NCBI RefSeq assembly: GCF_000469135.2
Contig: NZ_CP048117.1
Coordinates: forward strand, 967,501 to 1,031,500
Length of the DNA stretch: 64,000 nucleotides
Direction of reading: 5' to 3'
Origin: Bacillus sp. SB49
GTDB taxonomy: Bacteria; Bacillota; Bacilli; Bacillales; Halobacillaceae
Shown here: positions 22,233 to 26,100 of the stretch, in pieces
Numbering within the stretch: position 1 is the stretch's first letter
How the letters are laid out: each line of letters starts with the position of its first letter
Program-made: the position numbers and the translations under genes
The notes under the pieces: model-generated
The model's database searches: none
What the model was told of the DNA's origin: nothing
Seen by the model: the letters and a program-made list of their open reading frames with translations, nothing else

Positions 22233-23515
22233 AGGAAATAAAAGTTCCTGAATTAGCTGAATCCATAACAGAAGGTACGATCGCAGAGTGGTTAGTGAAA
22301 AAAGGGGATCAGGTGGAAAAAGGCGACCCGATTCTTGAATTGGAAACGGATAAAGTAAACGTAGAAGTAAATGCGGACGCAAGCGGCATCATTGCCGAGT
22401 TGCTTGCCGGGGAAGGGGATGACGTCGAAGTCGGAGACGTCATCGCCAAAGTGGATGAGAACGGTGAAGCAGGTGGCGGCAGTTCGGAAGTAGAAGGTTC
22501 CGCCAAGGAAGAACCGGCACCATCTAACGAAAAACAGGAAAAAGAAGAGCCTGCACAGAAAACGGAAGAGAAGCAGCCGGAAGAAAGCAATGGATCCAAA
22601 GACGTCATTGCGACACCTGCTGCCCGCAAACGCGCCCGTGAGCTCGGAATCGACCTTAGCGAAGTTTCCGCACGCGATCCACTTGGCCGCATCCGTCCGG
22701 AAGATGTCGACGCAGCAGCAAAAGGCAGCGGAAACAAGCAGGAACAGCCGAAAGCTTCCTCCTCTTCCAAAGAGAAAGAGAAACAGAACAGCTCAGATTC
22801 CAGTGATTTCGATAAGCCGGTGGAACGCATCAAGATGTCCCGACGCCGTCAGACAATTGCCAAGCGTCTCGTCGAAGCACAGCAGACATCCGCTATGCTT
22901 ACAACGTTCAACGAGGTCGACATGACGAATGTCATGAAGCTTCGTAGTGAACGGAAGGAATCCTTCCAGAAGAAACATGATATTAAGCTCGGGTTCATGT
23001 CCTTCTTCACCAAAGCGGCTGTCGGTGCTTTGAAAGAGTTCCCGCTTATCAATGCAGAGATTCAAGGCAATGAAATCATTAAGAAGAAATTCTATGACAT
23101 TGGAATGGCCGTATCTACAGAAGAAGGTTTGGTCGTACCGGTCGTCCGTGACGCCGATCGTCTTGATTTTGCAGGTATTGAGAAAGGTATTGCTGATTTG
23201 GCGACAAAAGCACGAAACAAAGAACTTGGTTTGGAAGACTTGCAGGGCGGGTCGTTCACGATCACTAATGGAGGTATCTTCGGTTCCATGCTTTCTACAC
23301 CGATTCTGAATGCTCCACAGGTCGGGATCCTCGGTCTTCATAACATTGAGAAGCGTGCAAAAGTTATGCCTGATGATTCGATTCAGGTGCGTCCAATGAT
23401 GTATATTGCCCTTTCCTATGATCATAGAATCGTAGATGGTAAAGATGCTGTTCAATTCCTGAAGCGTATCAAAGAAATGATTGAAGATCCGTTTGATCTT
23501 CTATTGGAAGGCTGA
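22229..23515 (+). CDS. odhB: 2-oxoglutarate dehydrogenase E2 (dihydrolipoyl succinyltransferase)
   Basis: Core of the 2-oxoglutarate dehydrogenase complex. 428 residues. The lipoyl domain has the modified lysine at about K42 in ELETDKVNVEV. An Ala/Pro/Glu/Lys-rich linker follows. The E3-binding domain is ATPAARKRARELGIDLSEV (about 127-145). The catalytic CoA-acyltransferase domain ends with SYDHRIVDGKDAVQFL, which holds the active-site His and Asp. AAAGGAGGAAA lies inside the end of odhA and the start overlaps the odhA stop, giving translational coupling. Lipoylation would depend on the lipM-lipA operon nearby. Confidence 0.97.
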   Translation: MKEIKVPELAESITEGTIAEWLVKKGDQVEKGDPILELETDKVNVEVNADASGIIAELLAGEGDDVEVGDVIAKVDENGEAGGGSSEVEGSAKEEPAPSNEKQEKEEPAQKTEEKQPEESNGSKDVIATPAARKRARELGIDLSEVSARDPLGRIRPEDVDAAAKGSGNKQEQPKASSSSKEKEKQNSSDSSDFDKPVERIKMSRRRQTIAKRLVEAQQTSAMLTTFNEVDMTNVMKLRSERKESFQKKHDIKLGFMSFFTKAAVGALKEFPLINAEIQGNEIIKKKFYDIGMAVSTEEGLVVPVVRDADRLDFAGIEKGIADLATKARNKELGLEDLQGGSFTITNGGIFGSMLSTPILNAPQVGILGLHNIEKRAKVMPDDSIQVRPMMYIALSYDHRIVDGKDAVQFLKRIKEMIEDPFDLLLEG

Positions 23516-23530
23516 GTTATTCACGGAAAT

Positions 23531-23578
23531 AAAGGCTGTGCATCTTCCCTGGGACAGGGGGGAGGCACAGCCTTTTTC
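23531..23578 (+). terminator. Terminator of odhAB
   Basis: AAAGGCTGTGC pairs with GCACAGCCTTT around a long partly paired loop, then TT. Confidence 0.8.
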
Positions 23579-23640
23579 TTTACCAGAAGAGAAGGCGGTT
23601 TAGTCTTTCCTGGTATCTGTGTTAATATAGAAGGAGAAAA

Positions 23641-23691
23641 ATGATGAAACGTTTCTTCTGCTTGATTCGTATCATTATTACTACCGCATAG
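23641..23691 (+). CDS. 16-codon upstream ORF ahead of the mifM-like gene
   Basis: AAGGAG (23631-23636) precedes two in-frame ATG codons at 23641 and 23644. The peptide is MMKRFFCLIRIIITTA and then stops. This is the strongest ribosome site between the odhAB terminator and yidC2. Its stop is 13 bases before ATG 23705 of the next gene, close enough for translational coupling. The peptide is basic then hydrophobic. No known leader peptide is recognised; it could be fortuitous. Confidence 0.4.
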   Translation: MMKRFFCLIRIIITTA

Positions 23692-23704
23692 AAAAGAGAT
23701 GCTT

Positions 23705-23992
23705 ATGTTCCCAATAATGGAATGGCTGGACGGATCTTATGATTTGCTGTTCCTGTCTATATACGTAACCGCCCTTACCGGTATGGCGCTTCAATCGCTG
23801 TGGTCCCACTTCATTAATGACTCTTCATCGTGGATAGAGGATCGATCCATTGAATTAATGACAGCTGATACGGGGCAGATCGGTGAAAGTACGGGGGCAG
23901 TGTTCGTACAACCGTTAATCCATTGGCTCCGCCGTACGGTTTGGAGGCAGGAGGCTTCGGACGAAAGCGACTATTCCCTCATTATTCGTTAA
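23705..23992 (+). CDS. mifM: MifM-like translation-arrest leader protein upstream of yidC2
   Basis: 95 residues from ATG 23705 (AAGAG six bases upstream), the length of B. subtilis MifM. One membrane span (about residues 12-33) is followed by a soluble tail. The C-terminal tail reads PLIHWLRRTVWRQEASDES then DYSLIIR. The spacing of Ile/Leu-x-x-Trp-Leu, basic residues and the acidic DESD cluster near the end resembles the MifM arrest region, which has W-I, M-N and DEED in similar places. It lies 33 bases before yidC2, and its last codons form the 5' arm of a hairpin that hides the yidC2 ribosome site. In B. subtilis, MifM senses insertion capacity by stalling and opening such a hairpin. Homology and arrest here are inference from position, topology and motif. 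Confidence 0.72.
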   Translation: MFPIMEWLDGSYDLLFLSIYVTALTGMALQSLWSHFINDSSSWIEDRSIELMTADTGQIGESTGAVFVQPLIHWLRRTVWRQEASDESDYSLIIR

Positions 23993-24014
23993 CAGATATA
24001 CACGAATAATGAGG
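23977..24014 (+). promoter_or_regulatory. Hairpin sequestering the yidC2 ribosome binding site
   Basis: CCTCATTATTCGT (23977-23989) pairs perfectly over 13 bp with ACGAATAATGAGG (24002-24014), with a 12-base loop holding the leader stop codon. The 3' arm covers the first half of AGGAGG (24012-24017), the ribosome site of yidC2 (TTG 24026). A ribosome stalled on the acidic codons at 23960-23971 would reach into the 5' arm and open it. Confidence 0.85.
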
Positions 24015-24025
24015 AGGAATTATAA

Positions 24026-24769
24026 TTGAAACGTTTATTATCCATTTTCGGTTTATTGACATTGCTGCTTGCCGGGTGTTCGCCATCTGATCAACAAGGG
24101 GGAGGCTTCTTCCACACCTATTTCGTAGAGCCGTTCATTCAGGCGATTCAATTCCTTGCAGGATTGTTCCATGATAACTATGGACTGGCTATCATTATCA
24201 TTACGCTCGGTGTCCGCTTCATTCTGATGCCGATCATGCTGAGAACTTACAAGAACAGTCAGCAGATGCGTGTGAAGATGAATACCGTCAAACCGGAGAT
24301 GACCCTTGTTCAGGATAAGATGAAGAAGGCGAAGACACCAGAAGAAAAGCAAAAGGCTCAGGCGGAAATGATGGAACTGTATCGTAAACACGACATCAAT
24401 CCGATGAACATGGGCTGTCTGCCGATTCTCATTCAAATGCCTATATTTATGGGTGTGTACTATGCTATTCGAAGCTCTGAAGAGATTGCAACCCATTCAT
24501 TCCTCTGGTTCGATCTCGGTCAATCAGATATTGCGATGGCGTTAATAGCTGGATTGTTGTATTTCATTCAATACCGCGTTACCTTGATTGGAATACCGGA
24601 ACAGCAGCAAAAGCAGATGAAAGTGATTGGTCTTCTGTCTCCGATCATGATTCTGATCATTTCCTTTAATGCCCCATCCGCGCTGCCTCTTTATTGGGCA
24701 GTCGGAGGACTGTTCCTGATCATTCAGACATTAATTTCTAAAAAACTATATCCTGTTCAACAAAGCTGA
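24026..24769 (+). CDS. yidC2: YidC/Oxa1 membrane protein insertase, lipoprotein type (YidC2-like)
   Basis: Inserts membrane proteins, alone or with SecYEG. 247 residues. The lipoprotein signal ends LLAGC (Cys 18). Transmembrane helices follow, with the conserved Arg in ITLGVRFILMPIMLR that sits in the hydrophilic groove. The cytosolic hairpin lies between, then MNMGCLPILIQMPIFMGVYYAI and the C-terminal helices (SALPLYWAVGGLFLIIQ). TTG start, eight bases after AGGAGG. A regulatory leader and hairpin upstream suggest this is the inducible paralogue (YidC2/YqjG), not SpoIIIJ. A perfect 15-bp terminator follows. Confidence 0.93.
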   Translation: MKRLLSIFGLLTLLLAGCSPSDQQGGGFFHTYFVEPFIQAIQFLAGLFHDNYGLAIIIITLGVRFILMPIMLRTYKNSQQMRVKMNTVKPEMTLVQDKMKKAKTPEEKQKAQAEMMELYRKHDINPMNMGCLPILIQMPIFMGVYYAIRSSEEIATHSFLWFDLGQSDIAMALIAGLLYFIQYRVTLIGIPEQQQKQMKVIGLLSPIMILIISFNAPSALPLYWAVGGLFLIIQTLISKKLYPVQQS

Positions 24770-24771
24770 TG

Positions 24772-24806
24772 AAAAGCACAGTCCTATTAATAGGACTGTG
24801 CTTTTC
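24772..24806 (+). terminator. Terminator of mifM-like/yidC2
   Basis: AAAAGCACAGTCCTA pairs with TAGGACTGTGCTTTT around TTAA. Confidence 0.9.
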
Positions 24807-24883
24807 TGTTTGTTCGAGGATAGCGTTTAGGTGGGATAGGGCAGGTTTTTATATGAAATTATCCATTCCTCTCTTAATAAGTT

Positions 24884-24912
24884 TCATCCATTGACGTGGA
24901 CCTGCATACGAT
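24884..24912 (+). promoter_or_regulatory. Candidate sigma-E promoter of yhbH
   Basis: TCATCCA (24884-24890), 14 bases, CATACGAT (24905-24912). The -10 matches the sigma-E consensus at 7 of 8 bases; the -35 is weaker. Confidence 0.45.
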
Positions 24913-24942: not shown

Positions 24943-26100
24943 ATGGATGAAGAGAAAAGTTTCGTAATCGCCGAAGACGACTGGTCCCTCCATCGGAAAG
25001 GCTACGACGATCAACGGCGACATCAGGAAAAAGTAAAAGACGCCATGAACAAGCAGCTTCCTGATCTTATTACAGAAGAGAATATTGTGATGTCGAATGG
25101 AAAACGAGTCGTAAAGATTCCTATACGTTCCCTTGATGAATATAAGATTCGATACAACTACGAGAAGAATAAGCATGCAGGACAAGGAGACGGGGACAGC
25201 CAGGTCGGAGATGTAGTGGCCCAGGCTCCTCAGTCAAAAGGAAAGCCTGGAGACGGAGATGGAGCAGGTGATCAGGCAGGAGAAGACTACTATGAAGCGG
25301 AAATTTCCCTTGCAGAGTTGGAGGAGGCCTTGTTCAAGGAGCTGACGCTTCCCAACCTTGATGAAAAAGAAAAAGACAATATTATTCAGACCGATATTGA
25401 GTTCAGCGATATTCGGAAGACCGGATTGACTGGAAACATTGACAAGAAGCGTACAATGTTGGAGGCGTATAAGCGGAATGCATTGAGTGGGGATGCGGCT
25501 TTTGCGCCGATTTATCCGGAAGATATCCGTTTTAAAACGTGGAATGAAAAAACAAAGCCGGAATCAAAAGCTGTCGTTCTTGCCATGATGGATACGAGCG
25601 GCTCGATGGGACAGTGGGAAAAATATATGGCGCGCAGCTTCTTCTTCTGGATGAATCGTTTTCTAGGGAAGAATTATGAGACAGTCGAAGTAGAGTTTGT
25701 TGCGCACCATACACAGGCGAAAGTAGTCAGTGAGGAAGATTTCTTCTCGAAAGGCGAAAGTGGTGGAACGATTTGTTCTTCGGCCTACCGCAAAGCGTTG
25801 GAATTGATAGAGACGAAATATTCACCGGACCGCTATAATATCTATCCGTTCCACTTCTCGGACGGCGATAATTTAACATCAGACAACAAACGCTGCCTCG
25901 GGTTAATCGATCAGTTGATTGAAGTTTCCCAGATGTTCGGTTATGGAGAAGTAAATCAGTATAACCGCTCTTCGAGTCTCATGCAGGCGTACAAAACGAT
26001 TGATCATCCGAAGTTCAGGCACTATATTCTTCGGAGGAAAGCGGATGTGTTCCATGCCATGAAGCACTTTTTTAATGAGCAGGGAGAAGTCGTTAAATGA
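24943..26100 (+). CDS. yhbH: Sporulation protein YhbH (DUF444)
   Basis: 385 residues, the usual length. A DUF444 protein with a von Willebrand A-like region containing the metal-site motif [15 protein letters not shown] central Gly/Asp-rich flexible segment ([23 protein letters not shown]) is also family-typical. YhbH is needed for normal sporulation in B. subtilis and functionally travels with PrkA and SpoVR-type proteins in many bacteria. AGGAGGG precedes the ATG. It has its own sigma-E-like promoter. Molecular function is not known. Confidence 0.95.

Follow-up and report, generated by a model that had tools for sequence, protein, structure and literature searches.

How does a bacterium with two YidC insertases decide when to make the second one? 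The question is raised by a locus in the window analysed here, a stretch of 64,000 nucleotides from a 3.77-Mb one-contig genome, in which a small open reading frame (ORF) lies directly upstream of yidC2 and in line with it. MifM is the best-studied membrane-insertion sensor, with its wiring worked out in B. subtilis, and its class has been catalogued with 572 sequences from 592 Firmicutes genomes (PMC10987492). The leader described below is as such one more member of that class; what we add is a promoter layer and a view of which arrest residues are typical. At a probability of about 0.8, our reading is that mifM-yidC2 is under two serial controls, a sigma-W-type promoter followed by a MifM-type arrest that frees the yidC2 Shine-Dalgarno (SD) sequence.

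All window features discussed here lie on the forward strand, in the order odhB-like gene, leader, yidC2 and yhbH-like gene, where odhB and yhbH are the names that we take to apply to the flanking genes. The odhB-like gene ends with its stop codon at 23515 and the yhbH-like gene begins at 24943. The sequence-only reading of this DNA had placed a 95-residue single-span protein directly before a lipoprotein-type YidC, and both genes are indeed there, the leader at 23699/23705-23992 and yidC2 at 24026-24769. The latter has a TTG start and encodes a lipoprotein-type YidC/Oxa1 insertase (PF02096, E 7.6e-42) with a weak lipobox match that stays under the cut-off. It is the second of the two YidC genes of the genome. 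The other is placed after ORFs reading like rpmH and rnpA, the usual location of YidC1/SpoIIIJ. A terminator-like repeat with a 16-pair stem and a T-rich tail follows yidC2 at 24771-24806; it comes from a simple consensus scan that found 2 terminators, against 1.1 in shuffles. A further terminator-like repeat with a T run lies between odhB and the promoter at 23530-23580, and is absent from the scan list since its loop exceeds the length that the scan allows. With this repeat upstream of the promoter, mifM-yidC2 transcription probably relies on its own promoter.

Of 22 genus genomes, 8 had a detectable leader, and these 8 were also the ones with a second YidC. Among the 14 single-YidC congeners the odhB locus could be recovered in 13 (all but G019), with a yhbH-like gene 185-967 nt after odhB in 11 and the contig end in 2. 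In the eight leader genomes yhbH lies 1265-1427 nt downstream in six, with none within the 1497 nt read in two. The recovered single-YidC odhB loci had no promoter pattern of the kind described below within 400 nt (291 nt in one that ended early). From this odhB-yhbH comparison among congeners, promoter, leader and yidC2 appear to behave as one cassette at one site. Within the family (44 genomes) a profile of the genus leaders added two genomes with a second YidC, G034 and G027. It missed G039-G042, where a second YidC (broken in G040) is likewise present and a leader was seen on reading. A weak leader-like match (L050, G025:C31:144873-145118, E 0.0018) with three stops in a single-YidC genome is either chance or a decayed leader.

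For the wider survey 118 yidC2-like loci were fetched, 112 of them order-wide from outside the genus (among the matches listed, with E down to about 1e-65) and six from the family. A strict filter required a small ORF containing both a hydrophobic span and an acidic cluster. It was passed by 98 loci, and 12 of the 20 failing loci showed such a leader on reading by eye. The f40 family (L065, L075, L078, L091, L099, L137, L145) has a lipoprotein-type yidC2 with other DNA upstream, in which no leader was seen by eye, and in G143 an unlike, multi-span ORF stands upstream of yidC2. The yidC2 frame of L134 (G040) and L167 (G165) is interrupted by a stop, with the leader apparently intact.

The new element, absent from the sequence-only reading, is a predicted sigma-W-type (ECF) promoter before the leader. 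It occupies 23645-23671 as TGAAAC, a 17-nt spacer and CGTA, a perfect match to the sigma-W promoter consensus TGAAAC-N16/17-CGTA, and transcription would start near 23679. The element was spotted under an apparent mini-ORF of 16 codons at 23641-23691 (MMKRFFCLIRIIITTA). As a candidate second leader this mini-ORF was dropped; by eye it has no counterpart upstream of the 7 other genus loci, and it also overlaps the conserved promoter element.

The promoter pattern is found 54-65 nt before the leader start in all eight genus loci, with mostly different spacers. Order-wide, 37 of 98 loci, spread over 14 of 30 families, have a perfect pattern within 200 nt upstream, as compared to 0 of 1960 shuffles. 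Within 150 nt, 7 further loci have it with one mismatch vs 0.68 expected (perfect matches expected, 0). The pattern is absent from 54 of the 98 loci even with one mismatch allowed, and from all 8 loci of the B. subtilis-type family f43 in the stretch read. The yidC1 genes gave no perfect match in the 800 nt upstream at any of the 22 genus loci. Across the genome of the window the pattern matches 47 times, vs 6 times for the reversed pattern. Two other genomes are less enriched (38 vs 15 reversed in G253, 58 vs 16 in G117), so not every match elsewhere is a promoter; in G253 none of the 38 sites is near its mifM.

One of the 47 sites starts 64 nt 5' of the SigW gene (L180:1565-2125; 315 bits vs a cut-off of 243.1 for the NCBI SigW equivalog), as expected for what would be an autoregulated sigma-W. 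Thirty of the 47 sites (L179-L208) outline a possible sigma-W regulon of the genome. Among the ORFs downstream of them are sigW and, judged by eye, genes resembling those of ABC transporters and membrane proteins, and some of the sites are intragenic. The ECF promoter does not appear in a sigma-70-type consensus scan, which by its description is blind to ECF sites. The open-access main texts searched gave no tie of sigma-W to mifM or yidC2. In the 2012 paper on the regulon (PMC3498285) the main text does not contain the names yqjF, yqjG, yqzJ and yidC, and the passages of PMC6827917 consulted link YidC1 to sigma-M stress and give no sigma-W control of yidC2.

The matches suggest sigma-W control of mifM-yidC2. 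A possible, though distinctly less probable, alternative retains the MifM-type arrest leader and has TGAAAC-N17-CGTA either read by another ECF sigma factor of the M, X or Y class or serving as a minor start beside a main vegetative promoter; since its arrest half is also that of our favoured reading, the odds of the two are not exclusive. ECF sigma regulons do overlap in B. subtilis (PMC3498285), and the TG-T-TAATAT sequence at 23620-23628 would be compatible with the extended -10 of a vegetative promoter. Against a different sigma factor, all 37 strict order matches and all 8 genus matches end in CGTA despite other endings (CGTC) having been allowed, and the SigW gene carries the same element. 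Against a vegetative promoter, none of the three sites that the sigma-70 consensus scan gave for 23400-24900 has its -10 at 23623.

The leader that this message would begin with is an ORF of 97 codons from ATG 23699 or 95 from ATG 23705, ending at 23992. ATG 23705 is the likelier start because all 8 genus leaders have a Met there and because GAAAAGAG sits 6 nt 5' of this codon but touches ATG 23699. The residue numbers of the window leader given here count from ATG 23699. Hydropathy reaches 1.66 at residues 16-34 and 63 residues come after the span (by a hydropathy calculation), which is the arrangement of MifM, where an N-terminal span precedes a soluble part longer than 30 residues. The span is weaker (KD 1.66) than those of five other computed leaders (1.91-2.35). 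Its flanking charges are -3 and -3, from which an N-out topology is not predicted; in the four congeners computed the C-side flanking charge is 0 to +2.

The 3' end of the leader gene is predicted to hide the yidC2 ribosome binding site. As the sequence-only reading had described, the last leader codons take part in a perfect 13-bp hairpin: 23977-23989 pairs with 24002-24014 without mismatch around a loop at 23990-24001, and the first half of the SD sequence AGGAGG (24012-24017) is in the stem. The arrangement is that of MifM, a stem-loop over the yidC2 SD with its 5' arm within the leader. The window hairpin folds at -18.2 kcal/mol (z -4.76), and none of 200 shuffles was as stable. Four congeners folded with both arms gave z values of -3.59 to -4.82, again with 0 of 200 shuffles. 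Folds lacking the 5' arm give no hairpin (z -0.19 for L012, 0.06 for L014 and 0.97 for the window cut at 23985). In the genus alignment of 8 sequences and 12 pairs, 96.9% of the cells are paired, and sliding the partner by 1-3 columns lowers this to 42.7-74.0%. Eight pairs never vary, two vary on one side and one departs by unpaired cells only. The remaining pair changes on both sides, in the window; this was reached by 64 of 500 shuffles and is weak evidence of covariation.

Across the order, counted over 93 of the 98 leaders, with five lacking a recognised SD before yidC2 left out, the region has a median z of -3.12 and z < -2 in 74 of 93 loci. At the control places z < -2 was obtained in 8 of 71 loci for the leader's own SD (71 of the 93 having a usable one) and in 3 of 93 for the middle of the leader. 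The pairing probability of the SD was unspecific, exceeding 0.5 in 90 of 93 loci, in 79% of shuffles and at 58 of 71 leader SDs. Because shuffles also exceeded this value so often, it was dropped as evidence and the folding energy was used instead.

The front edge of a ribosome lies 12-15 nt beyond the first base of the P-site codon. In the computation the window SD becomes free once the covered mRNA reaches about 23978-23987, with pairing falling from 0.75 to 0.41-0.16. Together these values would put the stop at Asp91 or within the next few codons, in agreement with the MifM stops at D89-S92 (PMC4423224) when these are transferred through the ungapped alignment described below. Of the pause that had been proposed at 23960-23971 as reaching the hairpin, a stop at Asp88 (23960) would be too early, and a P site at Asp91 or later fits. 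Combining the alignment by hhalign, the residue frequencies, the MifM stall sites and the SD release, we predict an arrest region from W76 to Y92 (23924-23974) with P-site codons from about D91 (23969) to I95.

Across the order the acidic cluster keeps a narrow range of distances to the SD (deciles 40-52 nt, sd 6.7), whereas the leader stop does not (sd 30.1). Leaders end at positions between 44 nt upstream (69 nt in one case) and 71 nt downstream of the yidC2 start. Counted by hand, the window has 43 nt from Asp91 and 49 from Glu89 to the SD. Such a nearly fixed cluster-SD spacing would be required if the stalled ribosome served as a ruler. When the ribosome front was set at +15 from the last acidic codon, SD pairing still exceeded 0.5 in 63 of 93 relatives; either many of these would depend on stops further along the leader, or the model oversimplifies. 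At L117:118-480 (-), L118:133-510 (-), L155:463-819 (+) and similar loci the leader overruns the yidC2 start by 26-71 nt in another frame, and these overrunning leaders keep the usual cluster-SD distance.

These distances bear on an alternative that we regard as improbable, namely that the leader just couples translation, the passage of a ribosome near its stop opening the hairpin with no arrest by the nascent chain. The hairpin does overlap the last codons, so that any terminating ribosome would open it briefly, and the leaders of some relatives extend past the yidC2 start. Yet the spacing that is held is the one from acidic cluster to SD rather than from stop to SD, and the C-terminal residues are conserved as protein, with W76, R79-T80-V81, R83, D91 and L94 invariant in 8 of 8 genus leaders. 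The leader is moreover homologous to a proven arrest peptide, as set out next, which argues for the MifM-type arrest rather than for coupling.

That the leader is a MifM-family arrest peptide is the most likely assignment, with arrest as such inferred from homology. The sequence-only reading had asked for a profile comparison with MifM proteins, and this came out in favour of the relationship. The window leader is the top match in its own genome to an order-wide profile (E 5.5e-8; next 0.54), built from 66 leaders from outside the family of the window, of 92 listed outside family f1; the 26 left out include long overlapping leaders. Alignment of the genus leaders with the order-wide family by hhalign gave a probability of 98.8 and an E of 6.4e-17, and placed the arrest region without gaps, W76-Y92 on W73-D89 of MifM. 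When the profile of the 8 genus leaders was searched directly against 10 genomes, it picked up mifM in three of them (G262, G213, G109) and in none of the five that belong to f43; B. subtilis-type MifM is therefore linked to this leader by way of intermediates.

The local charge of the leader is -0.6, where the published MifM classification rule asks for a value below -0.3 in residues 70-100 (PMC10987492). Pfam and NCBIfam hold no family for the leader, both Rfam matches are far under their gathering scores, and a single-protein search of the genome contigs with the leader gave no relative. A search with the genus alignment returned five named Halobacillus records as leader relatives, and on this basis the bacterium is taken as Halobacillus or a near relative. 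The published B. subtilis arrest motif is RIxxWIxxxxxMNxxxxDEED (PMC7897499); the leader of G253, RITTWIRKVFRMNSPVNDDED, fits it except for DDED and was taken as B. subtilis-type. That an unrelated small membrane protein acquired a MifM-like hairpin and motif by chance would accord with the low identity to B. subtilis-type MifM and with the direct genus-profile search missing it, but is very improbable given that no unrelated small membrane protein of the genome scored as well against the order profile, and given the hhalign result, the co-occurrence with yidC2 in 8 of 8 genomes and the hairpin z values.

The arrest region itself departs from that of B. subtilis. Among its arrest residues (R69, I70, W73, I74, M80, N81 and DEED) only the Trp is identical in the window leader; R69 is replaced by Pro, M80 by Arg, N81 by Gln, and I70 and I74 by Leu, while the acidic run in register is E-S-D-Y, not DEED. 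Two of the six residues needed in B. subtilis MifM (Arg69 and Met80) are thus replaced, by Pro and Arg. The sequence-only reading had taken such residues (WRQ for MN) as a sign of divergence. The residue frequencies in one automatic alignment of 106 leaders contradict this, Arg-(Lys/Gln) being the common form of the family and Met-Asn a rare one. At the Met80 position 70 leaders have Arg and 2 have Met, and at the Asn81 position 80 have Lys or Gln and 1 has Asn; the window has Arg and Gln. The Trp73 position is Trp in 66 of the 106, as in the window, and the position of residue 86 is Asp in 84, with Glu in the window. As judged from these aligned leaders, the exact B. subtilis arrest residues are not a defining feature of the family as sampled. 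On the ribosome side, L22 of the genome has Met90 and Phe85 (positions counted by hand). L22 Met90 is responsible for the species specificity of MifM arrest, and Phe85 makes contact with MifM Ile74 (PMC4423224).

The homology, gene pairing, hairpin, spacing, L22 Met90 and promoter conservation observed here would fit the following course of events, for which arrest, insertion-dependent release and sigma-W dependence are taken from homology or sequence. The sigma-W-type promoter would start a two-gene mRNA, so that the message would be present mainly under envelope stress. On this mRNA the yidC2 ribosome site is predicted to be held in the conserved hairpin, the 5' arm of which is formed by the last part of the leader gene. 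The leader would be a substrate of YidC. With YidC active, its span would be inserted as in MifM, the resulting pull would free the nascent chain, and the ribosome would clear the leader, after which the hairpin would re-form. When YidC capacity runs short, the basic-acidic C-terminal region would jam the peptidyl-transferase centre with the P site near Asp91-Ile95. By the computed geometry the stalled ribosome would then cover the 5' arm, leaving AGGAGG free, and the backup YidC2 would be made.

If the promoter is real, the envelope-stress response and the insertase backup are coupled in at least some members of 14 of the 30 sampled families, which tells when a second YidC is needed. We lean, with some reserve, towards a broader view in which, over a large part of the Bacillales-type order sampled, YidC2 would be an envelope-stress insertase under an AND gate, with mRNA made by sigma-W and translation allowed by MifM arrest only if insertion is failing. 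The B. subtilis model would then be the second half only, and its Met80-Asn81 contact a lineage oddity, the usual constriction contact being Arg/Lys-Arg-Lys. The residue survey suggests that the published constriction contact map describes an unusual member, and a typical member should therefore be studied.

Compared with known systems, the locus shares its promoter type with the B. subtilis sigma-W regulon, and the sigW gene here has the same element. ApcA of actinobacteria is likewise an arrest peptide before a second yidC (PMC7897499). It differs in its RAPG-type motif (PMC10987492) and in the SD-hiding hairpin, which its authors' programs did not find (PMC7897499). CliM of Clostridia (uC_KYxIW) also monitors YidC as an arrest peptide encoded before yidC2, again with a stem-loop (PMC13183943), but its lineage and arrest motif are unrelated, and the K-Y-x-I-W motif is absent from the leader translation. 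The B. subtilis pair MifM (YqzJ)-YidC2 (YqjG) differs from the pair described here in having Met80-Asn81 for Arg-Gln, Arg69 for Pro and DEED for E-S-D-Y in register, and in the sigma-W-type promoter that precedes the leader here and none of the eight loci of the B. subtilis-type family. In common the two have the position before yidC2, the 95 codons and the N-terminal span (PMC6037786, PMC4423224), a C-terminal region with Trp followed by basic and acidic residues, which aligns without gaps to the B. subtilis-type leader, and both the SD-hiding hairpin and the L22 Met90 on the ribosome (PMC6037786, PMC4423224).
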